From a virus, in IMG/VR virus record IMGVR_UViG_3300042516_002876, positions 1 to 29,111 of that record: a DNA stretch of 29,111 nt, one strand, 5' to 3'. Positions within the stretch are counted from its first letter, which is position 1. Every line of letters begins with the position of its first letter. The notes under the pieces were generated by a model. It made no database searches. It had not been told where the DNA came from and saw only the letters and a program-made list of their open reading frames with translations. Both the position numbers and the translations under genes were made by a program. Below are positions 3,430 through 14,921 of this stretch, piece after piece.

Positions 3430-5715
3430 TTACAACCCGCGCGGAATTTCTGCTTGGTTCCACTCCCTCATACGCCGACGAAGTTCTGTCACAGGAACAT
3501 TATACCGTGAGGCGGCTTTTTCAAGCTCCCTATCAGGTATTGCGCCGCGCGCTTCGGCAGGTGCGTTTTGCGAAATCCACGCGTCAACAGATTGTGGTCG
3601 CGCGGCACTGGGCCTACTCGTAGGTGCAGCGGTGCGCTGCCCCGGTGCCGGGGCGGTTCTGCCCAATGATCGGTTCAAAGCGCTCTGTCCCGCGCCTTCG
3701 TCTTGCGGCGCGGGGCGCTGCATAGATGAAGGGCTACGGCTAGTTCCCGACGCTGCCGGCGCTGCGGGTGCTGCGGGTGCCGCGCTTCCACCTTCATTAG
3801 CGCGTGGGCGCTGGCTTTGCAGATAGTCCCTCATTTCAGGAGATATATTTAGCGACGGACCACCTGCTTTCGGGCGTATCTGCGAAAAATCAGGCGCGAG
3901 AACAAAGTTGTTCGGTGTAGTCATGAACTGATCAAGCATACGGATAGACGCGCCCGCAAGCATGCGGGGGTTAGCGGCTACCGTTGGTAGAGCGAAACGC
4001 TCAAGCATATCTATCGGCACGGTTGAATTTTGTGGACGTGTGGATGTGTACGCATCAAGCGCCCTATCCGTCTCAGTCCGTGTCTGCGGTGTGACGCGCG
4101 ACTCATCACCTTCTCGCCGGTTCTGAGTCCGAACGGCGAGGTTGAGTCGTTCTTCAGCGATGCGAAGACGTTCTTCAGCAACTCGTTTGTCGTCTTCGTT
4201 GCGCGCTTGTGACAACGCAATGCGGGACCGCGCAACATCGTTGCGCAATTCGACACTGAGGGCGCGAATATCTAGGCCACGGTCGTACTGGCTTAGACGT
4301 TCCGCGGCTTGTGTTCTTGCTGCGGCGCGGTCTTCTTCGCGCAGCGAAAGAGAATCACGCGCAAGCTGAGTCATGTCCGTGAACCGCGCGATGCGGGCGT
4401 CAGCGACTTCCCTACGGGTTGCCGCGTTCCTGACCGCTGTAGCCGCCTGCGTCCGACCAGCGGCGCCACGCGTGTTGAGTCCACGACCAACAAGGTCGGC
4501 GTCTCTGGATTCTTCCGTATTGAGTTTTTCAAGCGCGGCGTCGATCCGTTCTTGGTTGCCAGAACGAACAGCCGAGTCGTATTCAACCTCAGCACGCGCG
4601 ACGCGCGACGCGGATTCGATAGCCTCTCCAGAGTTCAAATCTATCCGCCGACGTTCTTCGCGTTCTTCGCGGCGCAAAGTCAAATCCGCCGCTTGTAGCC
4701 CCTCACGGGCACGCGCGGCGCGGCTGGATTCGTCAAGCTGCCGCACTTGCAGTTGGTGCGTCATTGACCACTTCGGGTCGAGCATGGTCGTCGCGTACCG
4801 AGACACCTGATCAAGCGGCACGGTCATGCGTTGTGTTTCGCCCTGGCCGGATTCAGGCGTGCGTATGATCTCAATGGCCCGCCCGTTCGCCGCGACTCGG
4901 AAGTCGTCTTTGAATCCGTCAGGCATAAAGTTCGAGGCGCCGAACAGCGCCCACGTCGCCCCCTGAGCGTCCCCGGCTTCAGCCGCGGCGACTGCGAGAG
5001 AAATCATTTGGCCAAACCCACGCTGACGCTGTTGGTCGAGCATACCGACAACGCGCACCGCCTGATCTGGCGGCAGGAGTTCCATGGCGTCGTTGATGCG
5101 GCGCTCGTAGTAGGTGTTCCAGTGCTGACGGGTGAGAGGACCGCGTACACCACCGTTTGCCGCCGCTACTTCGCTTACCAACTGCTGCGGGCCGCGCGTG
5201 TCACCTGTTTGCCCAGGCACGTTACCTTGGGAGCCCGCGACTACACCGGCAGCGGTAGCCATAAGTACGGGATCACCACTGTTCGCAGCGCGCTCGAAAT
5301 CTTCCGGTGAAACTGGCGGGCGCTGAGATGGACCTCCTGATCCCGCAACGCCCGTCTGGACCGGCGCTTGTGGTGTCGTCGCTGGAGCCTGAGAAGGAGT
5401 AGGCGCCGCCTGCGCGGGGGCGCCGGCAAGTGCCCCCTGAACCGCGCCTTGTTGTGGTTGTGGCGTGGCGGCGGGAGCAGAGCCTTGCTCTTGCGGCGCA
5501 CCCTCGGGTGCCGGCGCTGCCTGCGGCGCCCGCACAGTGGCGTTCGGGTCAATCCCCAACTCACGCTGCAACTCGCGACCACGGCGCTGAAACTCCTCCG
5601 CGCCTTCGCGTTGGTTGCGAAAATATGCTGCCTGCTCACGTTGAAGGGAGGCGCGGGCCATCGTGCCGTATACGGCGGTGAACCCGCTGATTAGACCTTC
5701 ACCAAACGAAGCCAT
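3430..5715 (-). CDS. Putative internal virion protein, 761 aa, Ala/Pro/Gln-rich with long coiled coil
   Basis: ATG at 5715 has a strong AGGAGG site seven bases upstream. The N-terminal 60 residues are helical and charged (MASFGEGLISGFTAVYGTMA, then repeated R/E/Q). Residues about 62-135 are Pro/Ala/Gln low complexity. The central part, about 330-540, is a long charged helix or coiled coil rich in Arg, Glu and Ala (for example LRREEREERRRIDL and RVAEERLRIAEERLNLAV). A second Pro/Ala/Ser linker precedes a compact basic C-terminus with a HTH-like YNVPVTELRRRMREW. The size, composition and place between two other likely ejection proteins resemble the three-gene internal-protein blocks of P22- and T7-like podophages. 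No enzymatic domain such as a transglycosylase is visible. Confidence 0.65.
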   Translation of the reverse strand: MASFGEGLISGFTAVYGTMARASLQREQAAYFRNQREGAEEFQRRGRELQRELGIDPNATVRAPQAAPAPEGAPQEQGSAPAATPQPQQGAVQGALAGAPAQAAPTPSQAPATTPQAPVQTGVAGSGGPSQRPPVSPEDFERAANSGDPVLMATAAGVVAGSQGNVPGQTGDTRGPQQLVSEVAAANGGVRGPLTRQHWNTYYERRINDAMELLPPDQAVRVVGMLDQQRQRGFGQMISLAVAAAEAGDAQGATWALFGASNFMPDGFKDDFRVAANGRAIEIIRTPESGQGETQRMTVPLDQVSRYATTMLDPKWSMTHQLQVRQLDESSRAARAREGLQAADLTLRREEREERRRIDLNSGEAIESASRVARAEVEYDSAVRSGNQERIDAALEKLNTEESRDADLVGRGLNTRGAAGRTQAATAVRNAATRREVADARIARFTDMTQLARDSLSLREEDRAAARTQAAERLSQYDRGLDIRALSVELRNDVARSRIALSQARNEDDKRVAEERLRIAEERLNLAVRTQNRREGDESRVTPQTRTETDRALDAYTSTRPQNSTVPIDMLERFALPTVAANPRMLAGASIRMLDQFMTTPNNFVLAPDFSQIRPKAGGPSLNISPEMRDYLQSQRPRANEGGSAAPAAPAAPAASGTSRSPSSMQRPAPQDEGAGQSALNRSLGRTAPAPGQRTAAPTSRPSAARPQSVDAWISQNAPAEARGAIPDRELEKAASRYNVPVTELRRRMREWNQAEIPRGL

Positions 5716-5729
5716 CTTCTACCCTCCTA

Positions 5730-6836
5730 TTATGCCGGCAGTACCGCCAAGTCATAGCGCACCCTAGCGTATCCGTCAGGTCCGATCAGAACGGCGTTGG
5801 GGTGTACCTTAGCAACTTCGTCAGCCATAAACCCGGTCTGTAGCGGGCCACCCCAAATGTAGCGCCATACGTACACCGGCAGGCCATTCATCCATGTGCC
5901 AATACGGCGTATTTCACGCTTCAGGCGACGATCAGAAGGCGGTAAACCGCCACCAGCACCGCCACCACCACCGCGCCCGGCGCCACCTAGCGCGCCAGCA
6001 AGCGCGAGAGATGCGCCGCCAGTGTAAATCGAGCCAGCGAGCCCTGCCAGACCCCCAATCGCTGCGCCGATGCCAGCCGACGCTTGCGCTCGCGCCTGCT
6101 GCCCCGCCGCGTAGGTTTGGCCTTGAGCAGCGACGTTCGAGCCCCAATTCTGCAAGAAGCCAGATTGCAAGCCAGACCACTGCATGCCGGTGCCCATGGT
6201 GTTCGCGCCCGATGCCGTCGTCTGAAGGTTCGACTGTACCGCGCCGCCACCGGCCTGCTGCGCTGTGGTGTACGCCTGCGCGATGCTGCCTGGATACCCG
6301 CGACCGATATTGATGACTTCACCGCGGAGGGCGCGACTCACGTTCTCCACCTGAGTCCTAGCGGCGTTGGCCGCGCCTGCACCGGCAGCGGCTTGAGTTA
6401 TGCGCGCGGAGCGGTCGAGCGCGCCAGCACGCGCCATGGACGGGTCAACCCCGTAGCTTTCTAGGGTCGCCAAAGCACCGCGGCGCTGCGCGTCAAACGC
6501 CTGCGCCACGTCAGCCTGCGCCTTACCCGCTTCAAGCGCCTGACGCTCCGGTGTGGCGTAATCTGCCGCCTCACGCGCGAGCGCGTCTTCTACTGGCTGG
6601 AAAACCTCTTGGTATCGCGCGCGTTCGCGTGCGCCCGCTTCCGACTCAGCGACCATGTTCGGCAGCATGACATCGAGGAACCGCTGCGTCACTTCACGGT
6701 CTTGAGCGTACTGTTCACGCGCCCAAGCAAGCTGCTCGCGGGAAACCTGCGCGGCAAGTTCCGCTGCTTCCTTGTTCGCTTGCGCTACTGGCGCGTAGTC
6801 GGGAGCCGCGACTTTTTGACCCTTACCGCCGCCCAT
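5730..6836 (-). CDS. Internal virion / DNA-transfer-type protein with C-terminal S74-like (intramolecular chaperone) domain, 368 aa
   Basis: ATG at 6836 is preceded by AAAGGGGGC. The N-terminal 60 residues (MGGGKGQKVAAPDYAPVAQA) and the following Ala/Gln/Glu-rich helix match a common podophage ejection-protein layout. The middle contains Gly/Ala-rich hydrophobic stretches (GIGAAIGGLAGLAGSIYTGG and ALAGALGGAGRGGGGGAGGG). From residue 301 the sequence reads SDRRLKREI, then LPVYVWRYIW, then TGFMADEVAKVHPNAV. This is the signature of the S74/endosialidase-type chaperone domain, in which the Ser of SDRRLK is the usual self-cleavage nucleophile. Here the domain is short, about 68 residues, and may have lost self-cleavage. 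It heads the three-gene ejection block and follows the GNAT-like gene at a two-base spacing. Confidence 0.75.
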   Translation of the reverse strand: MGGGKGQKVAAPDYAPVAQANKEAAELAAQVSREQLAWAREQYAQDREVTQRFLDVMLPNMVAESEAGARERARYQEVFQPVEDALAREAADYATPERQALEAGKAQADVAQAFDAQRRGALATLESYGVDPSMARAGALDRSARITQAAAGAGAANAARTQVENVSRALRGEVINIGRGYPGSIAQAYTTAQQAGGGAVQSNLQTTASGANTMGTGMQWSGLQSGFLQNWGSNVAAQGQTYAAGQQARAQASAGIGAAIGGLAGLAGSIYTGGASLALAGALGGAGRGGGGGAGGGLPPSDRRLKREIRRIGTWMNGLPVYVWRYIWGGPLQTGFMADEVAKVHPNAVLIGPDGYARVRYDLAVLPA

Positions 6837-6837
6837 A

Positions 6838-7293
6838 TCAGCCCCCTTTCAGGTTGCGTGGCTTGATCCGCAACCATCTGCACTCGTCACGTTCCATACA
6901 TACCACAACCCCGGCACCGGAAACAAATAGTCCCGGCAGCACGGCTTGCACCTTGAACCCCAACTTCAGGTCGAAGTTCAACGCCTGCTCGTTGTCGCTT
7001 TCTACCACGCCGTACAACCGGCTGCATCCAAGCTGGACGAAGGGATAGTGGAACGTACACCAGAGCATGTCCGGTATGATCCATTTCTCGTTGCGCGCCC
7101 CGACATGAATCCAGATCGAGGCCCCCGTGTAGGAGCAGAAAATGACCCCGCCATGCACGCGAGACGGACTCCCAATAGGCTGCGAGTCGTCCACAACCCC
7201 TATCGTCGTATGCGCGCCGGGGACGTATTCACACTTGGCGCGGTCGGCCACGAACTCCCCAACTTGCACGTCGTTGAGAACCACGGTCTTCAT
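6838..7293 (-). CDS. GNAT-like (acyl-CoA N-acyltransferase fold) phage protein, 151 aa
   Basis: I chose ATG at 7293 because it overlaps the TGA of the preceding gene as ATGA; upstream in-frame extension would lie inside that gene. The C-terminal half reads LGCSRLYGVVESDNEQALNF..KLGFK. The NxxAxxF..xxGF part (residues 101-113) corresponds to the last conserved GNAT motif, and ECRWLRIKPR follows. A clear Q/RxxGxG/A acetyl-CoA loop is not seen, so catalytic activity is uncertain. Small GNAT-like proteins often sit inside podophage tail modules. There they may acetylate a virion or host protein, or serve only as a structural fold. Substrate unknown. Confidence 0.65.
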   Translation of the reverse strand: MKTVVLNDVQVGEFVADRAKCEYVPGAHTTIGVVDDSQPIGSPSRVHGGVIFCSYTGASIWIHVGARNEKWIIPDMLWCTFHYPFVQLGCSRLYGVVESDNEQALNFDLKLGFKVQAVLPGLFVSGAGVVVCMERDECRWLRIKPRNLKGG

Positions 7294-7598
7294 ACGTGGC
7301 CCCCATCGGCGTATTTCCACACTAGGCCGTCGCTGACCACGATATGTCTCCCGCCCTGCCCGTCCTCGATATAGGCGATGCAGTATTTCCAATCACGCGC
7401 AATCGGCAGTGTTTGGACAGTGAACACCTGCAACTGGATGGGCTTTAGCTCCAAGTCGCGCTTCAACACAGCCGCGAGTTGCCCGCTGCCGCGCGTCCCG
7501 ATAAGAATCTCGACGACCTGTTTCAGTGCGTCAATCGTCCGATATAGGCTCTTAATGGTTTCAGTGACGGTTGGGACAGCCGGGAACCTCTCAGACAT
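7290..7598 (-). CDS. Small phage structural-module protein, 102 aa, unknown function
   Basis: ATG at 7598 overlaps the end of the tail hub gene by eight bases, and its own TGA overlaps the next start as ATGA, so it is coupled on both sides. Residues 8-30 form a predicted helix (PTVTETIKSLYRTIDALKQV). The C-terminus, from WKYCIAYIEDGQGG to SDGLVWKY, is a short beta-rich segment of the kind seen in many small phage tail-module proteins (a DG..G...V.SDG.W pattern). That pattern suggests a small virion-associated or fibre-binding protein. No enzymatic motif is present and the family is not named here. Confidence 0.7.
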   Translation of the reverse strand: MSERFPAVPTVTETIKSLYRTIDALKQVVEILIGTRGSGQLAAVLKRDLELKPIQLQVFTVQTLPIARDWKYCIAYIEDGQGGRHIVVSDGLVWKYADGGHV

Positions 7599-9534
7599 CG
7601 GCCAACTCCTTAGATGTCTCGGCCACCTGAAGATTATACACTGGTACGGCGGTGTTTATCTCAAACTGCCACCTCTCCGACTTGAATCCGCTCGGCAATC
7701 TGTAGACAACACCATCCTCGACAACGCTTTGCCAAACGAGGTCTTTCCCGGCGTAAACCGTCACTTCGCACTTCCCGTTTTGTGTCAAAATCAGTTCAGG
7801 GTTCTCCTTGACGATTCCGTACCAATAAGGCCACACTTTTGTCGGATAATCATTCCCAGGTGGGTACTCTCCGTCTAACGGGTCTACGTTGATGGTGCGA
7901 CCGTTTATTTGGTTGTAGCCAATAATAGACACATATTCAGGCCATGGACCGCCAACCGGAATAGAACTTGTAGGGTCTTGTATAACCTCCAAAATGCGTA
8001 TGTCAGAACTTTCAGAAATTCTTATATCGCCGGATTCTGTGATTCGCTCGAATCCCTCCACAAATGGAGATTGGACTTCCACTTCGTCGTCGAAGGAAAT
8101 CATAAGCGCGCCGAGGTTTATCGGACGCTGGTACTGGAACTCTTTACTCAGCCATTGGGCCGGTATGTAGCCCGACATCAATGAGTCCCACTCATAAACG
8201 TCGTTGCCCATAGTCATGTGGACTTGCCCGGTATATGGATCAACCCACAAGCTCTGTATGGTAGAGAAATTGATGAGGTGCGTTATGTAGGGCTGGTCCC
8301 CAAGCGCGCCGTAGATAAAACCGTCCCCTGATTCACCGGCTGCGATGTACTGGGAGTCGTAGACAACTGCGTCCGAAATGAACGGCAAGAAGTCGCGCTG
8401 CCAAGCCTCGCGCCCGACTATGTTCTGCGTTACCGACGCGAGCCCCTGCGGCGAAATGAGAATGAGCCCGTTTGGAGACGCGTAGTACAATCCCTCTGGC
8501 GACGACGCGACGGAGTTTGCTGACACACAAGGTTCAACCTGCGTCAACTTCGCCATACTCATCGCTGCCGGATTGATACCAGTAACCAAGACTGGTGATA
8601 CAGAGGTCAAAACAATGAGCGTCTGCCCCACAACGCCGCAGTCAATGATTGGGTGGTCCACTGACAGCGTGTACTCCGCCGGCCACGCCCACGGGCGGTA
8701 TGGCTCGGAGAAAAACAAATCGCGCCCCTTCCACCCAGCGAAGAAGCCGTTGGGCATAAGCGCGATGCCCTCCATCTGAAGCGGCTCAATCCAGAGAGTC
8801 GACTCCAGAATAATACCAACCAATGCAACATCGGCATCGGATTGAGAATCGGTGTACGTCGTCGTGTTTATCGCGAACTGCGCAACGCGGAAGTATTGCG
8901 TGCCGGTAGAGCCCGATATGGTCCGGTAAAGGCGGATTCTATTGAGCCCGCGAGTCGCAGCGTTCACCGGGTTGATGAACCCCGTGACTGTCCATGTACC
9001 ATTCAGGTGCCCCGTCACAGTCACCGGGTCAGAAGGTGCGCCTTCCTCATCAAATATGTTGACGTAAGTGTATACATAAGACCGCGTGACGTTGATGTTG
9101 GAGCCACCAGTGACCGTCACTGTGGGGGCGTTGGTCGGCGCCGGCACCCCTAGTTGAATGGTGGGTTGCCCCGCTTTGATGCGCGCAAAACTGTTTTGCA
9201 CCGGAAACGCAGCGGTGCCGGGGGCGTTATTATCGATCCACACATACCGATCAAAAGCATCGTTCGTCAGGGGGTTTGGGAAAAAATCAGCATATTTTGA
9301 AGTAAACGGAATCCACACTGGAGCAGACGGGTCCGCAGGATCAGGAACGCGAACCGCCCATCCATAAGCCGACATCGAAGAAAAGTCTTTGATCTTTATC
9401 GGCTGACGAACGCCACGCAGTTCGCCGTTCCGCAAAGACGCATTGTACGTCTGTTCGGCCATGTTTGGCGGAAGGAGCCGCGACGATATGAGCGGTGCCA
9501 TTCCTGCGAAGCGTTCAAAGCGGATACTAACCAT
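7591..9534 (-). CDS. Tail hub / nozzle protein, beta-propeller-like (P22 gp10 or T7 gp12 type), 647 aa
   Basis: ATG at 9534 lies within the last codons of the upstream gene (eight-base overlap). The protein is long and beta-rich. It contains LFFSEPYRPWAWPAEYTLSV, then GVVGQTLIVLTSVSPVLVTG, then a Cys-containing EPCVSANSVASSPEGLYYAS and SPNGLILISPQG. This succession of strand pairs with SPxG turns is characteristic of the propeller part of podophage tail nozzle/hub proteins that close the portal channel. A fibronectin-like segment (VTVTGGSNINVTRSYVYTYV, then GAPSDPVTV) precedes it. The C-terminus is a separate beta domain. Size and position between adaptor-type and ejection genes agree. The subfamily assignment is by pattern, not by alignment. 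Confidence 0.75.
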   Translation of the reverse strand: MVSIRFERFAGMAPLISSRLLPPNMAEQTYNASLRNGELRGVRQPIKIKDFSSMSAYGWAVRVPDPADPSAPVWIPFTSKYADFFPNPLTNDAFDRYVWIDNNAPGTAAFPVQNSFARIKAGQPTIQLGVPAPTNAPTVTVTGGSNINVTRSYVYTYVNIFDEEGAPSDPVTVTGHLNGTWTVTGFINPVNAATRGLNRIRLYRTISGSTGTQYFRVAQFAINTTTYTDSQSDADVALVGIILESTLWIEPLQMEGIALMPNGFFAGWKGRDLFFSEPYRPWAWPAEYTLSVDHPIIDCGVVGQTLIVLTSVSPVLVTGINPAAMSMAKLTQVEPCVSANSVASSPEGLYYASPNGLILISPQGLASVTQNIVGREAWQRDFLPFISDAVVYDSQYIAAGESGDGFIYGALGDQPYITHLINFSTIQSLWVDPYTGQVHMTMGNDVYEWDSLMSGYIPAQWLSKEFQYQRPINLGALMISFDDEVEVQSPFVEGFERITESGDIRISESSDIRILEVIQDPTSSIPVGGPWPEYVSIIGYNQINGRTINVDPLDGEYPPGNDYPTKVWPYWYGIVKENPELILTQNGKCEVTVYAGKDLVWQSVVEDGVVYRLPSGFKSERWQFEINTAVPVYNLQVAETSKELADV

Positions 9535-10033
9535 TTATTTCATCCATCACTGCAAGCAGCGCACGGAATGTTGCTGTAGCGGGTTCGGCCAGTTCAGTTT
9601 GCTCGCGCAACTGCTTCACCAACGCCTCCGCCTCTGAAGGCAGAGGGTAGAAAACATGCGCAGTGGCGTATCGCAGCGAAGCCATAGTCTTCGCCAGAAC
9701 AGCCCCGCCGCGCCGATGCGCGCCATGCAGCACATAGGCTGCTCCGAGCCTATCAGTATCGCCGGCCAGTCCCTCGGCGAAAAGCCGCGCTGCCTTGGGC
9801 TCCCGTCCAACTACACCATGTTCCGCCTGCATCATGGCGAGGTCTGCGTCCAGTAACGCAACGCGGGTCAGGTGTAGCGGGAGGTGGGGGTCGATGACTC
9901 GGTGAATCGCGCGAAACGCCGCCAGCCAATCCGCCCATTCCTGGGGCGTGACCGTGCCCGCGCTCATGCGCTGCCCCACCGGATGCGCTTCGCAGGCGTG
10001 GTGCAGGTCGCGCGTAGCGGCGTAGAGGGTCAT
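9527..10033 (-). CDS. Heme-oxygenase-like protein, 168 aa
   Basis: The ATG at 10033 overlaps the preceding TGA as TGATG; a GTG one codon earlier is also in frame. Heme oxygenases open heme to biliverdin, CO and iron. The product carries ATRDLHHACEAHP at residues 6-18, matching the ATxxLHxxxE helix that supplies the proximal heme ligand, with His11 at the ligand position. GAAYVLHGAHRRGG at 97-110 matches the glycine-rich distal helix (G..YVLEGS..GG in bacterial members). Length is slightly below the usual 190-210 residues. The gene sits inside the tail operon, between a small hypothetical protein and the tail hub, coupled on both sides. It may be an auxiliary metabolic gene or a heme-oxygenase fold reused in the virion; the sequence alone cannot decide. 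Confidence 0.65.
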   Translation of the reverse strand: MTLYAATRDLHHACEAHPVGQRMSAGTVTPQEWADWLAAFRAIHRVIDPHLPLHLTRVALLDADLAMMQAEHGVVGREPKAARLFAEGLAGDTDRLGAAYVLHGAHRRGGAVLAKTMASLRYATAHVFYPLPSEAEALVKQLREQTELAEPATATFRALLAVMDEING

Positions 10034-10305
10034 CACGCATTGACCAACCGGCCAACCATTGCCGGGTGGGCTTGCAGTAGCCCCTCCGGCGTCGGGATCG
10101 GGCTGTGGCGCCGCGTCAGCACCGCGAACATCGCCTGTGTGCCGTCTATATCTACCGCGATAGGCGGAGCGCCCTGCGGCGGCATCCAGGCGCCCGCGCG
10201 TGGGTCTTGGTCTGTGATGGCCTTAGCTGCGGTTGCGACCGCAACCGAACCAAAGAAACCCTGCGGCACCCACTCATTCGGGTCTTGGTTCAATTCATCA
10301 CTCAT
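10033..10305 (-). CDS. Hypothetical phage protein, 90 aa
   Basis: ATG at 10305 overlaps the upstream TGA as ATGA and has GGAGG nine bases upstream, a strong start. The N-terminus is polar (MSDELNQDPNEWVPQGFFG), then a short Ala-rich helix (SVAVATAAKAITDQ), then Pro-rich MPPQGAPPIAVDIDG. No known domain is recognised. It is coupled to the LamG-like appendage gene before it and the heme-oxygenase-like gene after it, so it belongs to the tail/appendage block. It may be a small virion or adaptor protein. Confidence 0.7.
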   Translation of the reverse strand: MSDELNQDPNEWVPQGFFGSVAVATAAKAITDQDPRAGAWMPPQGAPPIAVDIDGTQAMFAVLTRRHSPIPTPEGLLQAHPAMVGRLVNA

Positions 10306-12035
10306 GGCAAACCTCCTACCAAAGATTGAAGTTCTGCGTCGGACACCGTGAAAGGCAGCACTCGCAACCGCGTCACGTCACCGTTCAGCGGGCTAGACAG
10401 ATCAGCGATGTTGCCAAGCCGGAAGCGCGTCAGGCCAGATGCAGGCCCTCCGGTCACGGTGGCGATGGCGCCGCCGTTTAGGCTTGCTGCCACGCGGCCC
10501 GCCCCATCCAAGGACATGCCAGCTTTGAACCTTATCCCCGCCGTCACAGCGCCGACGTTGGCCGTGACAGCCGTTCCGTTTAGCGCCCGCATCACTTCAA
10601 GCTGCCCGCTTGTCTGGTTGATACGCATGGTGACGCGGTTATTGATGCTGGCATCATCCAAACACGCCAAAGTATGAAGCCCTGCGGGCTGGAAAACCGG
10701 AACCAAACCAGTCCACAGAACGGTGCCGGCGCCGTTTCCGCTTATGCCCAACTGCGAAAGCGCAGCCCCTACAATGTCAGCCCCCCGCGTTGCGGCGGCA
10801 GTTGTGCCGACAGGCGGTAGCACAGGGCTGGTAGCCGTGGCGCCAAGCTCTGTCTGCGGGGCGGCAAAGCGGATAGTTACGTCAACCGCGACCTCCGACC
10901 CGATAGTACCTGATCGCCATGATGGTCGTATCGCATTGGTGGGGGCTGTACTCACGGTGTGCGGCACCGATACCAACCGGCAAGCAGATAACCGATCTGA
11001 TGGATTACCTGGGGGCGCCGCCGCAAGCAATGGAATGGCATTTGTGCCAACGCCAGCGGTGTTTTCCTGAACCCCAAAAACGGAGTCAGTCGTCGGGTAA
11101 GTACCCGCAATAATCTTCGCGTAAATCGAATGAGTAAATGTTTGTCCAATTGAAGCTGGAATAATTAGACCAGCATTCTCCAGAAATAAAGCCAATCTCC
11201 CAGCAGCGTTTGTTGTTCCATACCACCGAACATCAAAATAATTCATGTTGTTTTCAACGCCGACGGCAACAACCTCAGCCGAGAGCGAAGAAAATCCTGC
11301 TTGGGAAATCAAGTAATTTGTCGGGGCGGTCCCTGGCGTTCCGGCAACAGCACCTTCAAGGTTAGGGTTGCGGATATTGTTGGTGGTCTGGCGCTCGATA
11401 GAAAGGCCCTGCGCCACGCCGTTAAAACGTGGCGCATCCGCACCAAAAAAAGTCAGACTGCCCGAGAGGTCAAACGCGGTGGACCTCACGCCCGCAGCCT
11501 GCGCCCTCTCAAAATTAAGCGGCGCGGCGATGAAGTTCGGCGCAACGAGGGTAATACCCTCTGGACTTACTTGCACGGCGGCATTGCCGGACATGACAAA
11601 CTCATTTGGCGCCACGCAATCAATCGTCACGAGGCCGCGAGGGCTGATGGTTTGCGGGCCTGTCAGCGCGGAGCCGCCCAAGTAGAGGGTAACGCCCGCC
11701 CCAGGCAGCACATCGCGCGTCTGCATGGAATTATTCAGAACCGAAAACTTGTCCCCCAACCGAAAGACACCTGCCGGAATAGTCACGCTCCCCACTGAAA
11801 TCGAAACTAGGCGCCCCGCGTCAGCCAAAACTGCCGTGTAAGCACTGGTTACAACCCGGTGCGGGCGCCGCCCTTCTGGATGCAGCCATGTCGCGCCATC
11901 GCAGTAATACACCAGCCCATCTTCGCCATAGGCATAAGCGCCGGCATATGCCGCAGGCTCAAGCGCGATGGGGACTGGCAGCGCAACCCCACGTCCAACA
12001 AGCGTTCCGCGCCCGCTTCCAAGCCGCGTCGTCAT
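10302..12035 (-). CDS. Tail appendage protein with C-terminal LamG/concanavalin-like domain, 577 aa
   Basis: ATG at 12035 overlaps the preceding TGA as TGATG; a GTG one codon upstream is an alternative. The N-terminal 60 residues include EDGLVYYCDGATW, a short virion-attachment-type beta motif, followed by beta-rich repeats (SVGSVTIPAGVFRLGDKFSV and others). The centre has PRFNGVAQGLSIERQTTNNI, a pattern of phage fibre proteins (R.....GL.IE.Q.TN). The last 150 residues (VTMRINQTSGQLEVMRALNG to GDVTRLRVLPFTVSDAELQS) follow the strand pattern of LamG/concanavalin lectin folds, which bind glycans. It is therefore a likely receptor- or polysaccharide-binding appendage. It lies in a run of four coupled appendage-block genes. 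Confidence 0.7.
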   Translation of the reverse strand: MTTRLGSGRGTLVGRGVALPVPIALEPAAYAGAYAYGEDGLVYYCDGATWLHPEGRRPHRVVTSAYTAVLADAGRLVSISVGSVTIPAGVFRLGDKFSVLNNSMQTRDVLPGAGVTLYLGGSALTGPQTISPRGLVTIDCVAPNEFVMSGNAAVQVSPEGITLVAPNFIAAPLNFERAQAAGVRSTAFDLSGSLTFFGADAPRFNGVAQGLSIERQTTNNIRNPNLEGAVAGTPGTAPTNYLISQAGFSSLSAEVVAVGVENNMNYFDVRWYGTTNAAGRLALFLENAGLIIPASIGQTFTHSIYAKIIAGTYPTTDSVFGVQENTAGVGTNAIPLLAAAPPGNPSDRLSACRLVSVPHTVSTAPTNAIRPSWRSGTIGSEVAVDVTIRFAAPQTELGATATSPVLPPVGTTAAATRGADIVGAALSQLGISGNGAGTVLWTGLVPVFQPAGLHTLACLDDASINNRVTMRINQTSGQLEVMRALNGTAVTANVGAVTAGIRFKAGMSLDGAGRVAASLNGGAIATVTGGPASGLTRFRLGNIADLSSPLNGDVTRLRVLPFTVSDAELQSLVGGLP

Positions 12036-12511
12036 CACACCACCCCGATATGTTCAGCCGAAAGGCGTTCTTCGGCACTGCCCCACACATCCAACGCCGC
12101 CGCATCGTCGGCGCGAATCTGAAGCCGGTCGCCATTTGCCGCCGCCGTCGCGCTTGGTGAGCGTTTGATAAGGCTGCGGCCTTGGACCGGGATATAAACC
12201 GTATCAAACGCCGGGACTGTGACTCGCCCAGGCGAGAGGACCGTGGTTCCCGCCTCCGTCACCAACTGCACCTCAACCCATCGCGCCGTTGCTGTCTTGT
12301 TGTATACGGCCAAAGGAGTCAGCAAAAATATCTCGCCGGGGCGGATCGCCCGCGCAGCATCCAATGGATCGCGCGCCGCAAACGACTGACTTGGATCAGG
12401 CACAGAGAAATCAGGCGCATCGACAATAGTTGTGAAAGCCGTTGGAACATTGAGCAAAGTGATGTTCAGCGGCTTACCGCTTGCGGGTGTCTTACAGGTA
12501 ATGCGGGGCAT
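12035..12511 (-). CDS. Phage virion-associated (appendage/decoration-type) protein, 158 aa
   Basis: ATG at 12511 shares its A with the upstream TGA (TGATG). The sequence is mostly beta: IRPGEIFLLTPLAVYNKTA, then RWVEVQLVTEAGTTVLSPGR, then FDTVYIPVQGRSL, then NGDRLQIRADDAAALDVWGS. The order PGE, LTP, NKT, RWVEVQ, VPxxDTVxIPVQG, NGDRLQ recurs in small podophage proteins beside tail fibres, probably a single beta-sandwich. No catalytic motif is present. The flanking genes are both appendages, so it may be an adaptor that joins one to the tail. Confidence 0.7.
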   Translation of the reverse strand: MPRITCKTPASGKPLNITLLNVPTAFTTIVDAPDFSVPDPSQSFAARDPLDAARAIRPGEIFLLTPLAVYNKTATARWVEVQLVTEAGTTVLSPGRVTVPAFDTVYIPVQGRSLIKRSPSATAAANGDRLQIRADDAAALDVWGSAEERLSAEHIGVV

Positions 12512-14409
12512 CAGAAGCTCCTTGCGATTGCTGTGCGCGTGGCTACGCGGCGAACTGCGGAATCAAACGGCGGGCCACCCAACTCGCCAGTATCGGCGTT
12601 GATCTCCAAGCCACCCACGAAAATCGCGTTGCCTTGGTCGTCCTGACCACTTGCGACAACCACGCCCTCATTCTGTTCGAGGATGCTGTCGCGGATGGTT
12701 GCGGCGTTATTTGCCGGAGGGATGCGGGCCAGAGCAACGCCCGCCATTACCGCCGTCCATGTGTGGCCAATCGCCGTGATCTTGCTCGGCTCTCGGCGCG
12801 TCACAGGACTGCTTACCGTGCTGACAACCGCCGCCGTCATATTCGTCACCATGGTCTGCGCTGCTGCGACGATGCCGAGCGCATTGATCTGGTCGCGCAT
12901 ATTGTTCCACGCGAACACAAAAGCCGTGAACTTCGGGGCGTCAATCACAGACGCGCCTACTGTGTTGAACATGCCGGCAGCGAAATCTTGGATCGGTTTT
13001 TCGGTGGCGTACTCAAGGCCCCACCGGATACATTGCAGGAAAAGAGCGGCGTCATAACGAGTGAAAGTTTCGTCCTGCGCCGTCCAACCCGTCGTGTACC
13101 CGCCCGATACCAACGCCGTCCACATATTGTTGATGATGGTGGTCTGCGCCGCTGCTACAGCGCTCGCGGCGGCGGTCTGTATAGACGGTGTGCCCGCCAC
13201 AGCAGCCGGCACTATGATGTTGCGGTAGCCCTTCGCGGCCATCGAATAATCACCAAACTGAGTCGAACAGGCCGATAGGATAATCTGCCCCCCGGTCGTA
13301 GCCAGGAAGTGAATATGCGCCCACATTGAAACCGCGTTCACGGCGTTGATGAGCCCCCCATTCTTGGCAACGTACCCGATTCCGTTGTGTGTAACGGGAG
13401 TCGCGCCCCAAGTCATGATGTTGGGAAACGGGCTGTAGGGACTGCACACCAATCCATCGGCCAGAACCACACCGCCGCCAAGACCAACAGCGGGGTTTCC
13501 GTTGTCGCGGTCGAGCGGCGGCGCCACGGCGCTCCACGTACGCCCGGTGCGGATGGCGCATTTATGGGCGTAAGGCACGCGGTTGATCACGGCGCCTGGA
13601 CGAAAGCTGAAGGCGAAGCCACTAGTCGGATCGGTCAGGCTGTCGAGGCGGAAGTCCTCGATCAGAAACCCCTCAACGAAGCATCCAGAGCCCATACGGA
13701 AGACATTGCGAGTCTCGTACCCAACTTCAGGGCGGATCACAGCCGTACGGTGTGCTGACCGGATGACGCAATTATCCGGCAGGTCGAGATGACCTTGCGT
13801 CTCATACGTGCCTGGGTAGACTTCGATCAGCGTCGGAACGCCGCTGGCAGTCGCGAGTTGAATCGCGCGCTCTAGTGTAGCCACCGCCTTTGTCAAAGAC
13901 GACCCATCATTCAAGTCAATGCCGTTCCCCTGCACGTAAACGGTGCGCGACACAGCCTGAACCGCCGCGTTTACCGCCGTGGTAAAATCCGTGATCTCAG
14001 ACGCGGTATGTGTGTGACCGATGTTTGATTTACCATTTAGCGCTGTTTGCTGCGCGGTGGAGACCGGCTTGTTTACGTCGCTTGTATTGTCTACGTTGTT
14101 GATAGAAAGCGCCGTGCGCTGGGCACCGACATTGGCGGCGGTCAGCAGCGTCCTACCGACCGTGGTGGAGTCCGTAATGTTAGCCGCGACATGCGTGTGG
14201 CCGACGTTTGATTTCCCGTCTAACGCGGCCTGCAAATTGGCAACGTCGTTGATGACGTGCGTATGGCCGACATTTGATTTCCCAGTGAGCCCTGTCTCAA
14301 TGTCGCTCAGCGTCGCCTTTTTATTTACGCCATTCTGAACGACTTCAAACAGCGTATTACCAGCAAGGGCGGACGCCGCGGGAAGCTGCGAAATCTTCAC
14401 GTTTGCCAT
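12511..14409 (-). CDS. Tail fibre / appendage protein with GHTH repeats and beta-helix domain, 632 aa
   Basis: ATG at 14409 starts MANVKISQLPAASALAGNTL, the virion-attachment start common to phage fibres. Three near-identical GKSN(V/I)GHTH repeats follow at residues 43-51, 65-73 and 126-134; HxH motifs in fibres bind metal ions along the trimer axis. INNVDNTSDVNKPVSTAQQT is a widespread fibre repeat. From about residue 155, YVQGNGIDLNDGSSLTKAVA, then LIEVYPGTYETQGHLDLPDN, then CVIRS indicates a pectate-lyase-like right-handed beta-helix, as in tailspikes. The C-terminal 200 residues are Ala/Thr-rich and probably helical plus beta. It likely recognises a host polysaccharide. Catalytic residues could not be placed. 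Confidence 0.8.
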   Translation of the reverse strand: MANVKISQLPAASALAGNTLFEVVQNGVNKKATLSDIETGLTGKSNVGHTHVINDVANLQAALDGKSNVGHTHVAANITDSTTVGRTLLTAANVGAQRTALSINNVDNTSDVNKPVSTAQQTALNGKSNIGHTHTASEITDFTTAVNAAVQAVSRTVYVQGNGIDLNDGSSLTKAVATLERAIQLATASGVPTLIEVYPGTYETQGHLDLPDNCVIRSAHRTAVIRPEVGYETRNVFRMGSGCFVEGFLIEDFRLDSLTDPTSGFAFSFRPGAVINRVPYAHKCAIRTGRTWSAVAPPLDRDNGNPAVGLGGGVVLADGLVCSPYSPFPNIMTWGATPVTHNGIGYVAKNGGLINAVNAVSMWAHIHFLATTGGQIILSACSTQFGDYSMAAKGYRNIIVPAAVAGTPSIQTAAASAVAAAQTTIINNMWTALVSGGYTTGWTAQDETFTRYDAALFLQCIRWGLEYATEKPIQDFAAGMFNTVGASVIDAPKFTAFVFAWNNMRDQINALGIVAAAQTMVTNMTAAVVSTVSSPVTRREPSKITAIGHTWTAVMAGVALARIPPANNAATIRDSILEQNEGVVVASGQDDQGNAIFVGGLEINADTGELGGPPFDSAVRRVATRTAIARSF

Positions 14410-14419
14410 AACAGACTCC

Positions 14420-14674
14420 TTAACACTTCCACGCTCTTAGCGACTTATTGATGCGCGAATTTGGATCGTTCGCCGTTTTTTCAGAAGTGAGTTTGGCCTT
14501 CATACCCTTCATTCTGGCGCAAAAAGAATCGCGGCGAGGACCGCCCTCGGGCTGCGGGGCCTTCAGCCCAGGCTTACCAGGGTTCGCACGGTTATAGGAC
14601 GCCCGGCCTTTGGCGTTAAGCCCTCCAGCCGGATTCTTCCCTTCCTTGCGAGTCCATGCCGGCGTCTTCGCCAT
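14420..14674 (-). CDS. Small basic phage protein of the DUF6321-like type, 84 aa
   Basis: ATG at 14674 shares its A with the TGA of the 28-residue gene (TGATG); a GTG one codon upstream is in frame. The product, starting MAKTPAWTRKEGKNPAGGLN, is strongly basic and rich in Gly, Lys and Arg. It contains the near-invariant GRASYNRANPGKPGLKAPQP and RRDSFCARMKGMKAKLTS segments known from a widespread family of small phage proteins. The function of that family is unknown to me; the charge suggests nucleic-acid contact. It lies in a chain of tiny coupled genes between the lysis block and the tail appendages. Confidence 0.85.
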   Translation of the reverse strand: MAKTPAWTRKEGKNPAGGLNAKGRASYNRANPGKPGLKAPQPEGGPRRDSFCARMKGMKAKLTSEKTANDPNSRINKSLRAWKC

Positions 14675-14760
14675 CACTTAGACCCCATGCACTTCCCGGC
14701 CTTCGCGCATTTGGCCGGAGTTGGGCAACCTTTGCAGGGCTTCATCGGCTTCTTCGCCAT
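14674..14760 (-). CDS. Cys-rich mini-protein, 28 aa
   Basis: I read MAKKPMKPCKGCPTPAKCAK then AGKCMGSK directly from the minus strand. ATG at 14760 overlaps the upstream TGA as TGATG, and its own TGA overlaps the next ATG in the same way. Four cysteines (CKGC, then C, then C) in a Lys/Pro background suggest a tiny zinc-binding or disulfide knot. Related mini-proteins with an AKKPxKxCKGC start occur beside phage virion genes. Its conserved-looking composition and double coupling argue that it is translated despite its size. Confidence 0.7.
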   Translation of the reverse strand: MAKKPMKPCKGCPTPAKCAKAGKCMGSK

Positions 14761-14921
14761 CACTTCTTTCCTTTCGATGCGAGTTCTTGAAAGCGCTTCT
14801 TGCCGTACTTCTGCCGACCAATGGACGCTGCGAGTGCTTTGGGGTCTTCGACCCCTTTGCGCGAGAGTTTCGCGGTCAACTGCTTGAACCGCTCACCAGA
14901 ACCAAGAGGGGGTTTTGCCAT
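14760..14921 (-). CDS. Small basic phage protein (MAKPPLGSGERF family), 53 aa
   Basis: I chose the ATG at 14921, which gives the family-like start MAKPPLGSGERFKQLTAKL. An in-frame GTG at 14939 overlaps the Rz1-like stop and could also serve. The middle, GVEDPKALAASIGRQKYGKK, recurs in small phage proteins of this type and resembles a short two-helix unit, with a basic C-terminus. Function unknown; a DNA-binding or virion-internal role is possible from the charge. Its stop overlaps the start of the Cys-rich mini-gene. Confidence 0.8.
   Translation of the reverse strand: MAKPPLGSGERFKQLTAKLSRKGVEDPKALAASIGRQKYGKKRFQELASKGKK

Follow-up and report, generated by a model that had tools for sequence, protein, structure and literature searches.

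In HO-1, a canonical heme oxygenase (HO), Tyr58 bonds to Asp140. His25, Tyr134, Arg183, and Gly143 have been named as heme-contacting residues (PMC5623701). In human HO-1, the D140H mutation strongly reduced the activity (PMC7948506), and the D140A mutation turned the enzyme into a peroxidase (PMC5623701). In soybean HO-1, the distal hydrogen-bond network is carried by an Ala149-His150 pair (PMC7948506). HOs encoded by phages are already known, namely the HemO proteins of hemO-pcyA/X(-alaS) cassettes (pelagiphage Mosig, CB_2, and related phages), of which vHemO of CB_2 makes biliverdin (PMC11480375), and distant phage proteins are labelled as HOs in UniProt. An earlier note on the DNA analysed here had assigned the known phage HOs mostly to cyanophages, which was incomplete, as hemO genes of pelagiphages and freshwater phages have been published, one of them with an active product (PMC11480375). 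To date, phage HOs have chiefly been interpreted as aids to pigment pathways. No description of an HO beside phage tail genes was found in the literature, with subscription journals mostly outside the coverage.

Herein, we analysed an HO-like gene in a stretch of 29,111 bases (the window), which is a single linear IMG/VR virus record. The open reading frame that the earlier note had placed at 9527-10033, with no strand given, was confirmed as a gene on the minus strand, with the stop codon at 9529-9527; the plus strand of the same interval contained internal stops. The gene and the sites discussed below are as follows.

9527..10036, minus strand: HO-like gene (the HO gene), 169 aa from GTG at 10036 or 168 aa from ATG at 10033
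9989..10018, minus strand: proximal-helix motif ATRDLHHACE, in which His12 and Glu16 align with His25 and Glu29 of HO-1
9704..9745, minus strand: distal-helix motif GAAYVLHGAHRRGG, aligned to HO-1 without gaps
9605..9607, minus strand: codon of Arg144, aligned with the propionate-binding Arg183 of HO-1

When the window protein alone was searched against Pfam, PHROG, NCBIfam, and the PDB, there was no usable match, and AmpR, the sole PDB match of the single-sequence search (E 0.15), was rejected as a chance hit. A single-sequence scan of IMG/VR revealed relatives at 46 loci, and a profile scan gave 139 confirmed relatives, of which 80 were kept. The dN/dS values between the window gene and five relatives were about 0.10-0.22, indicating purifying selection. 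These values and the many relatives indicate that the reading frame is not a chance one. Among 23 aligned members, 16 matched Pfam Heme_oxygenase (PF01126) at E<=10, with a best value of 3.4e-5, and the 23-bit cut-off of PF01126 was passed by no record in the genome search. The family profile A2 (33 members) matched human HO-1 among the PDB chains with a best E of 8.3e-6, and all matches at E<=1 were HOs. The INPHARED phage collection held no relative of the window protein, and three divergent family members retrieved nothing from it except one chance ribonucleotide-reductase match, so that no cultured phage could be used. Judged by sequence, the window protein is below every family threshold and its membership rests on its relatives.

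The AlphaFold model of the protein, built from the phage alignment alone, had a pLDDT of 96.9 and a pTM of 0.92. It adopted the HO fold rather than another one, and the best 50 Foldseek matches in the PDB were all HOs (TMq 0.67-0.83). The best viral fold matches were A0A6J5KN38 (TMq 0.85) and A0A6J5RJ96 (TMq 0.84) from uncultured Caudovirales, which share the HO-like fold at only 18-20% identity and are known here by database name. The heme-oxygenase-like character claimed earlier was thus strongly supported by profile, predicted fold, and residue conservation. The gene most likely encodes an enzyme of a diverged, almost phage-exclusive HO subfamily, as far as sequence and model can tell.

To assess the heme site, we compared 64 distinct, complete sequences, comprising the window protein and its IMG/VR relatives. 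His12, Glu16, Tyr101, Ala106, His107, Gly110, Gly111, and Arg144 were invariant in all 64. In the HMMER alignment to HO-1, His12, Glu16, Tyr101, and Arg144 corresponded to His25, Glu29, Tyr134, and Arg183, whereas Ala106-His107 took the place of Gly139-Asp140, and Gly110-Gly111 that of Gly143-Gly144; the residue roles were assigned from this alignment. The proximal motif proposed as ATxxLHxxxE was present, and its His11, numbered from the ATG, is residue 12 counted from the GTG and is the invariant ligand candidate, so that homologues do not lack it. The distal motif, proposed as G..YVLxGxxxGG, was also found, with the spacing from G to GG being four residues instead of three. The position of Tyr58 in HO-1 was His45 in 57 of the 64 sequences and Gln in the rest. 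Further invariant or nearly invariant His and Asp residues were H18, H45, D49, D65, and H127. The HO reading does not explain this set, which could instead belong to an HO-fold enzyme of other chemistry, such as a diiron oxidase/oxygenase or a TenA-like protein with an invariant His/Asp/Glu set. However, a diiron site would explain neither the kept Tyr101 and Arg144 anchors nor the proximal His12, and the best 50 PDB fold matches were all true HOs, which makes this assignment very improbable.

The protein could also be a heme binder with altered chemistry, in which the Ala-His site makes it peroxidase-like or a heme sequesterer or carrier and biliverdin is not formed. His45 and His107 form a non-standard distal set, the top-scoring matches of the A2 profile were the G139A mutants of human HO-1 (structures 1xjz and 1xk0), and the peroxidase made by D140A (PMC5623701) points in the same direction. 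On the other hand, plant HO-1, which is an HO, has the identical Ala-His pair, and all other heme-site residues checked were standard. We consider altered chemistry doubtful. As D140H and D140A damage the activity of the human enzyme, catalysis by the phage HO is likely, not assured.

The neighbourhood of the gene was then annotated. The genes that flank it in the window are as follows.

12511..14409, minus strand: proximal tail-fibre protein (c2), 632 aa, with three GHTH motifs; matches tail fibre PHROGs
12035..12511, minus strand: conserved 158-aa cassette protein of the c1 family, predicted beta-sandwich
10302..12038, minus strand: distal fibre/tail protein, 578 aa; weak tail match to phrog_1419 (3.2e-6)
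10033..10305, minus strand: 90-aa protein directly upstream of the HO gene, with no significant family match
7591..9534, minus strand: structural protein downstream of the HO gene, 647 aa; phrog_511 'internal virion protein' (E 1.6e-108)
7290-7598: 102-aa gene after the phrog_511 gene

The coupling claimed on both flanks was borne out. The start of the HO gene is overlapped by the stop of the 90-aa gene (TGATG), and its stop overlaps the ATG of the downstream gene by 8 bp. The 90-aa gene is also coupled to the 578-aa gene and occupies the position that a tail-fibre assembly chaperone has in relatives. The same record contains major head, head-tail adaptor/portal, collar-fibre, and terminase genes. 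A GNAT-type acyltransferase-like gene (phrog_4470; 6838-7392, minus strand) lies in the structural operon, with further virion proteins beyond it; its listed reading frame overlaps the 102-aa gene. The c1 family (window, L109-L268) is conserved, widespread, and unnamed, encoding 137-177 aa between the proximal and distal fibre genes. The c1 protein of the window had no Pfam or PHROG match, and its model (pLDDT 79.7) gave weak jelly-roll/lectin-like matches. The three GHTH repeats of the proximal fibre resemble the HxH motifs that bind iron at the tip of the long tail fibre of T4.

The embedding among tail genes noted for the window turned out to be general across dozens of otherwise unrelated phages. 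Clustering of neighbouring reading frames revealed a recurring order of c2, c1, distal fibre (c3/c4 or others), chaperone or small gene, and HO. The backbones after the HO gene were unrelated, comprising phrog_511 in the window, and elsewhere a baseplate hub, NlpC/P60, and GTA_TIM hub, or an M15 peptidase or amidase. The immediate upstream proteins (n=42) were DUF4376 in eight cases, Phage_tail_APC in five, and Caudo_TAP in one, with fibre proteins among the others. Despite these differing upstream genes, an overlap of 4 bases or 1 base between the HO start and the preceding stop recurred at 30 of 53 distinct loci, with start codons picked mechanically. When cassettes were found via the c1 family, independently of HO, and counted only with enough downstream sequence, 36 of 93 (11/55 and 25/38) carried the HO gene 1.1-5.7 kb downstream on the same strand, counts that are inflated by close relatives. 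Hence the association between HO and fibre genes is strong, not obligatory, and HO is an optional cargo. A protein resembling glycosyltransferase 2 and containing TPR (c8; L011 1185-2249, and relatives) also recurs in some HO-bearing fibre cassettes.

Two relatives allowed the borders of the cassette to be compared. The window was 99.3% identical to L002 over 4646-10039 and 94.8% over 12030-14869, and between these intervals (10039-12030) the distal fibre and 90-aa genes were replaced by non-homologous sequence. The borders of the swap were nearly gene-exact, one of them being a few bases at most from the start of HO, and HO was kept in L002 with 98% amino acid identity. In L003, DNA similarity to the window was found only in the HO gene and the c2/c1 fibre genes, and the genes after HO were unrelated. 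Taken together, the two comparisons indicate that HO is transferred along with fibre cassettes and is tied to no single tip.

These results bear on the suggestion in the earlier note that the fold is reused structurally, as a fibre structural or assembly factor (chaperone, plug, or decoration) with no heme chemistry. The recurrent place right after fibre or chaperone genes, with start and stop overlapping, would suit such a role. However, the heme site was invariant, HO was optional in related cassettes and was retained while the adjacent tip and the small partner gene were replaced, DUF4376 and Phage_tail_APC chaperones were already upstream in many loci, and one clade had HO away from the tail. 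Optional carriage and survival of the tip swap speak against a chaperone or a component dedicated to the fibre, and we regard structural reuse as improbable. Packaging of the protein in the virion also seems improbable.

In the non-tail clade, HO lay near RNase H-like and L,D-transpeptidase genes and, in some records, ferritin/Dps genes. In the tree, this clade fell within a group that is otherwise mostly fibre-linked, which suggests, with moderate tree support, that fibre linkage is older than the non-tail placement. In L028, L032, and L096, a ferritin/Dps-like gene was located a few kb downstream of HO. A general pairing of HO and ferritin was rejected, because just 3 of the 27 records showed it and each of them belonged to this clade. 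The ferritin/Dps-like, L,D-transpeptidase, and RNase H-like genes with HO form a possible phage iron-handling island.

Which hosts carry relatives was examined in cellular genomes. The three carriers detected in a scan of 84,980 genomes all belonged to the Rhodobacteraceae (Roseovarius TE539, Aliiroseovarius S1123, and one metagenome-assembled genome). In Roseovarius, the gene is part of a fibre cassette, and this copy was therefore taken for a prophage. Among 397 Rhodobacteraceae genomes, a profile search gave 4 strong matches. Judging from these relatives, the host of the window virus is probably a marine roseobacter-type bacterium. Roseobacters can take up heme and have been credited with an HmuS protein called heme oxygenase (PMC5225302). 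Canonical HO was rare, being found in 2 of 121 Rhodobacteraceae genomes. Separately, L273 (genome G404, of the same class as the Aliiroseovarius carrier) encodes an intermediate HO-like protein, which matches the phage profile with E 5.3e-39 and has GATLMGG in place of GAHxxGG. This protein, cellular or from a prophage, may connect the phage family to other HOs.

The host also bears on a role as an auxiliary metabolic gene for bilin pigments, like the hemO genes that accompany pcyA, pcyX, or pebS in cyanophages and pelagiphages. Such phage genes exist, including in freshwater phages (PMC11480375). However, the matches in cellular genomes were Rhodobacteraceae and not cyanobacteria, and the bilin reductase profile Fe_bilin_red matched 0 of 36 HO-bearing virus records, many of them fragments, with a working positive control. 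A bilin-pigment role is therefore highly unlikely.

According to the above results, we favour, at a probability of about 0.62, a cytoplasmic, heme-binding, and probably catalytically active HO, made late as cargo of a mobile fibre cassette. Heme binding is judged very probable, and biliverdin formation is somewhat favoured. His12 would ligate the heme iron proximally with Glu16 backing it, Tyr101 and Arg144 would hold the heme propionates, and Gly110-Gly111 would allow packing of the distal helix against the heme. Ala106-His107 and His45 may form the distal hydrogen-bond network, as the Ala-His pair does in plant HO-1. Heme would be cleaved to biliverdin, CO, and Fe2+ using electrons supplied by a host ferredoxin/reductase. 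The protein would be made late because its gene lies inside a structural operon and is translationally coupled to structural genes. The gene would pass between phages with the fibre genes, neither fixed to a tip nor required by the cassette, and the likeliest benefit would be iron release or heme removal in the infected cell. Besides the harmful D140 changes in human HO-1, the lack of a bilin enzyme in the records searched, and the sub-threshold matches of the window protein, it counts against the enzyme reading that His45 in place of Tyr58 differs from the arrangement in plant HO-1, and that an ordinary metabolic gene needs no such consistent fibre neighbourhood.

The simplest account of the fibre linkage would be a recombination hot-spot and nothing more. 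A role in host recognition would also account for a heme enzyme in mobile fibre cassettes. In that case, late heme degradation would either supply iron to the virion fibres, of which the proximal one of the window has the three GHTH motifs, or alter the iron/heme status of the host and with it the TonB-type iron/heme receptors, thereby limiting re-adsorption. GHxH motifs were present upstream of HO in 11 of 48 HO-bearing neighbourhoods, indicating that HO does not require a GHxH fibre. The excess of GHxH in HO-bearing (16/45) over HO-less cassettes (2/59) is confounded by relatedness and all-frame counting, and this general HxH test gave no support for iron loading of fibres. We consider host recognition unlikely as the function.

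Compared with canonical HOs (PF01126; human and rat HO-1, HmuO), the phage HO has the common fold, the proximal His/Glu, and the equivalents of Tyr134/Arg183 and Gly143-Gly144, but it is shorter (about 169 aa), shows 14-19% identity in structural alignment, and has Ala-His for Gly139-Asp140 and His for Tyr58. Soybean GmHO-1 (7eqh) has an Ala-His distal pair at the equal place (PMC7948506). Unlike the phage HO, plant HO-1 has Tyr60, taken as the Tyr58 equivalent, in the distal network and an extra irregular region. The overall similarity is weak, and the shared Ala-His pair may be convergent. The phage HO thus provides a second natural example of an Ala-His distal site of the plant type. In contrast to the hemO genes of Mosig and CB_2 in bilin/tetrapyrrole cassettes, HO genes of the window type are located in tail-fibre cassettes, and no bilin reductase was found in the 36 HO-bearing records. 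Neither the subfamily nor its fibre linkage or Ala-His/His45 distal site seems to have been described before. A separate, widespread, fibre-linked HO subfamily of roseobacter-type phages without bilin reductases points to another phage use of heme breakdown, probably concerning late iron/heme status, and it may add chemistry usually missing in the host family. The long-standing idea of phage iron handling at tails can now be tested with a defined gene.
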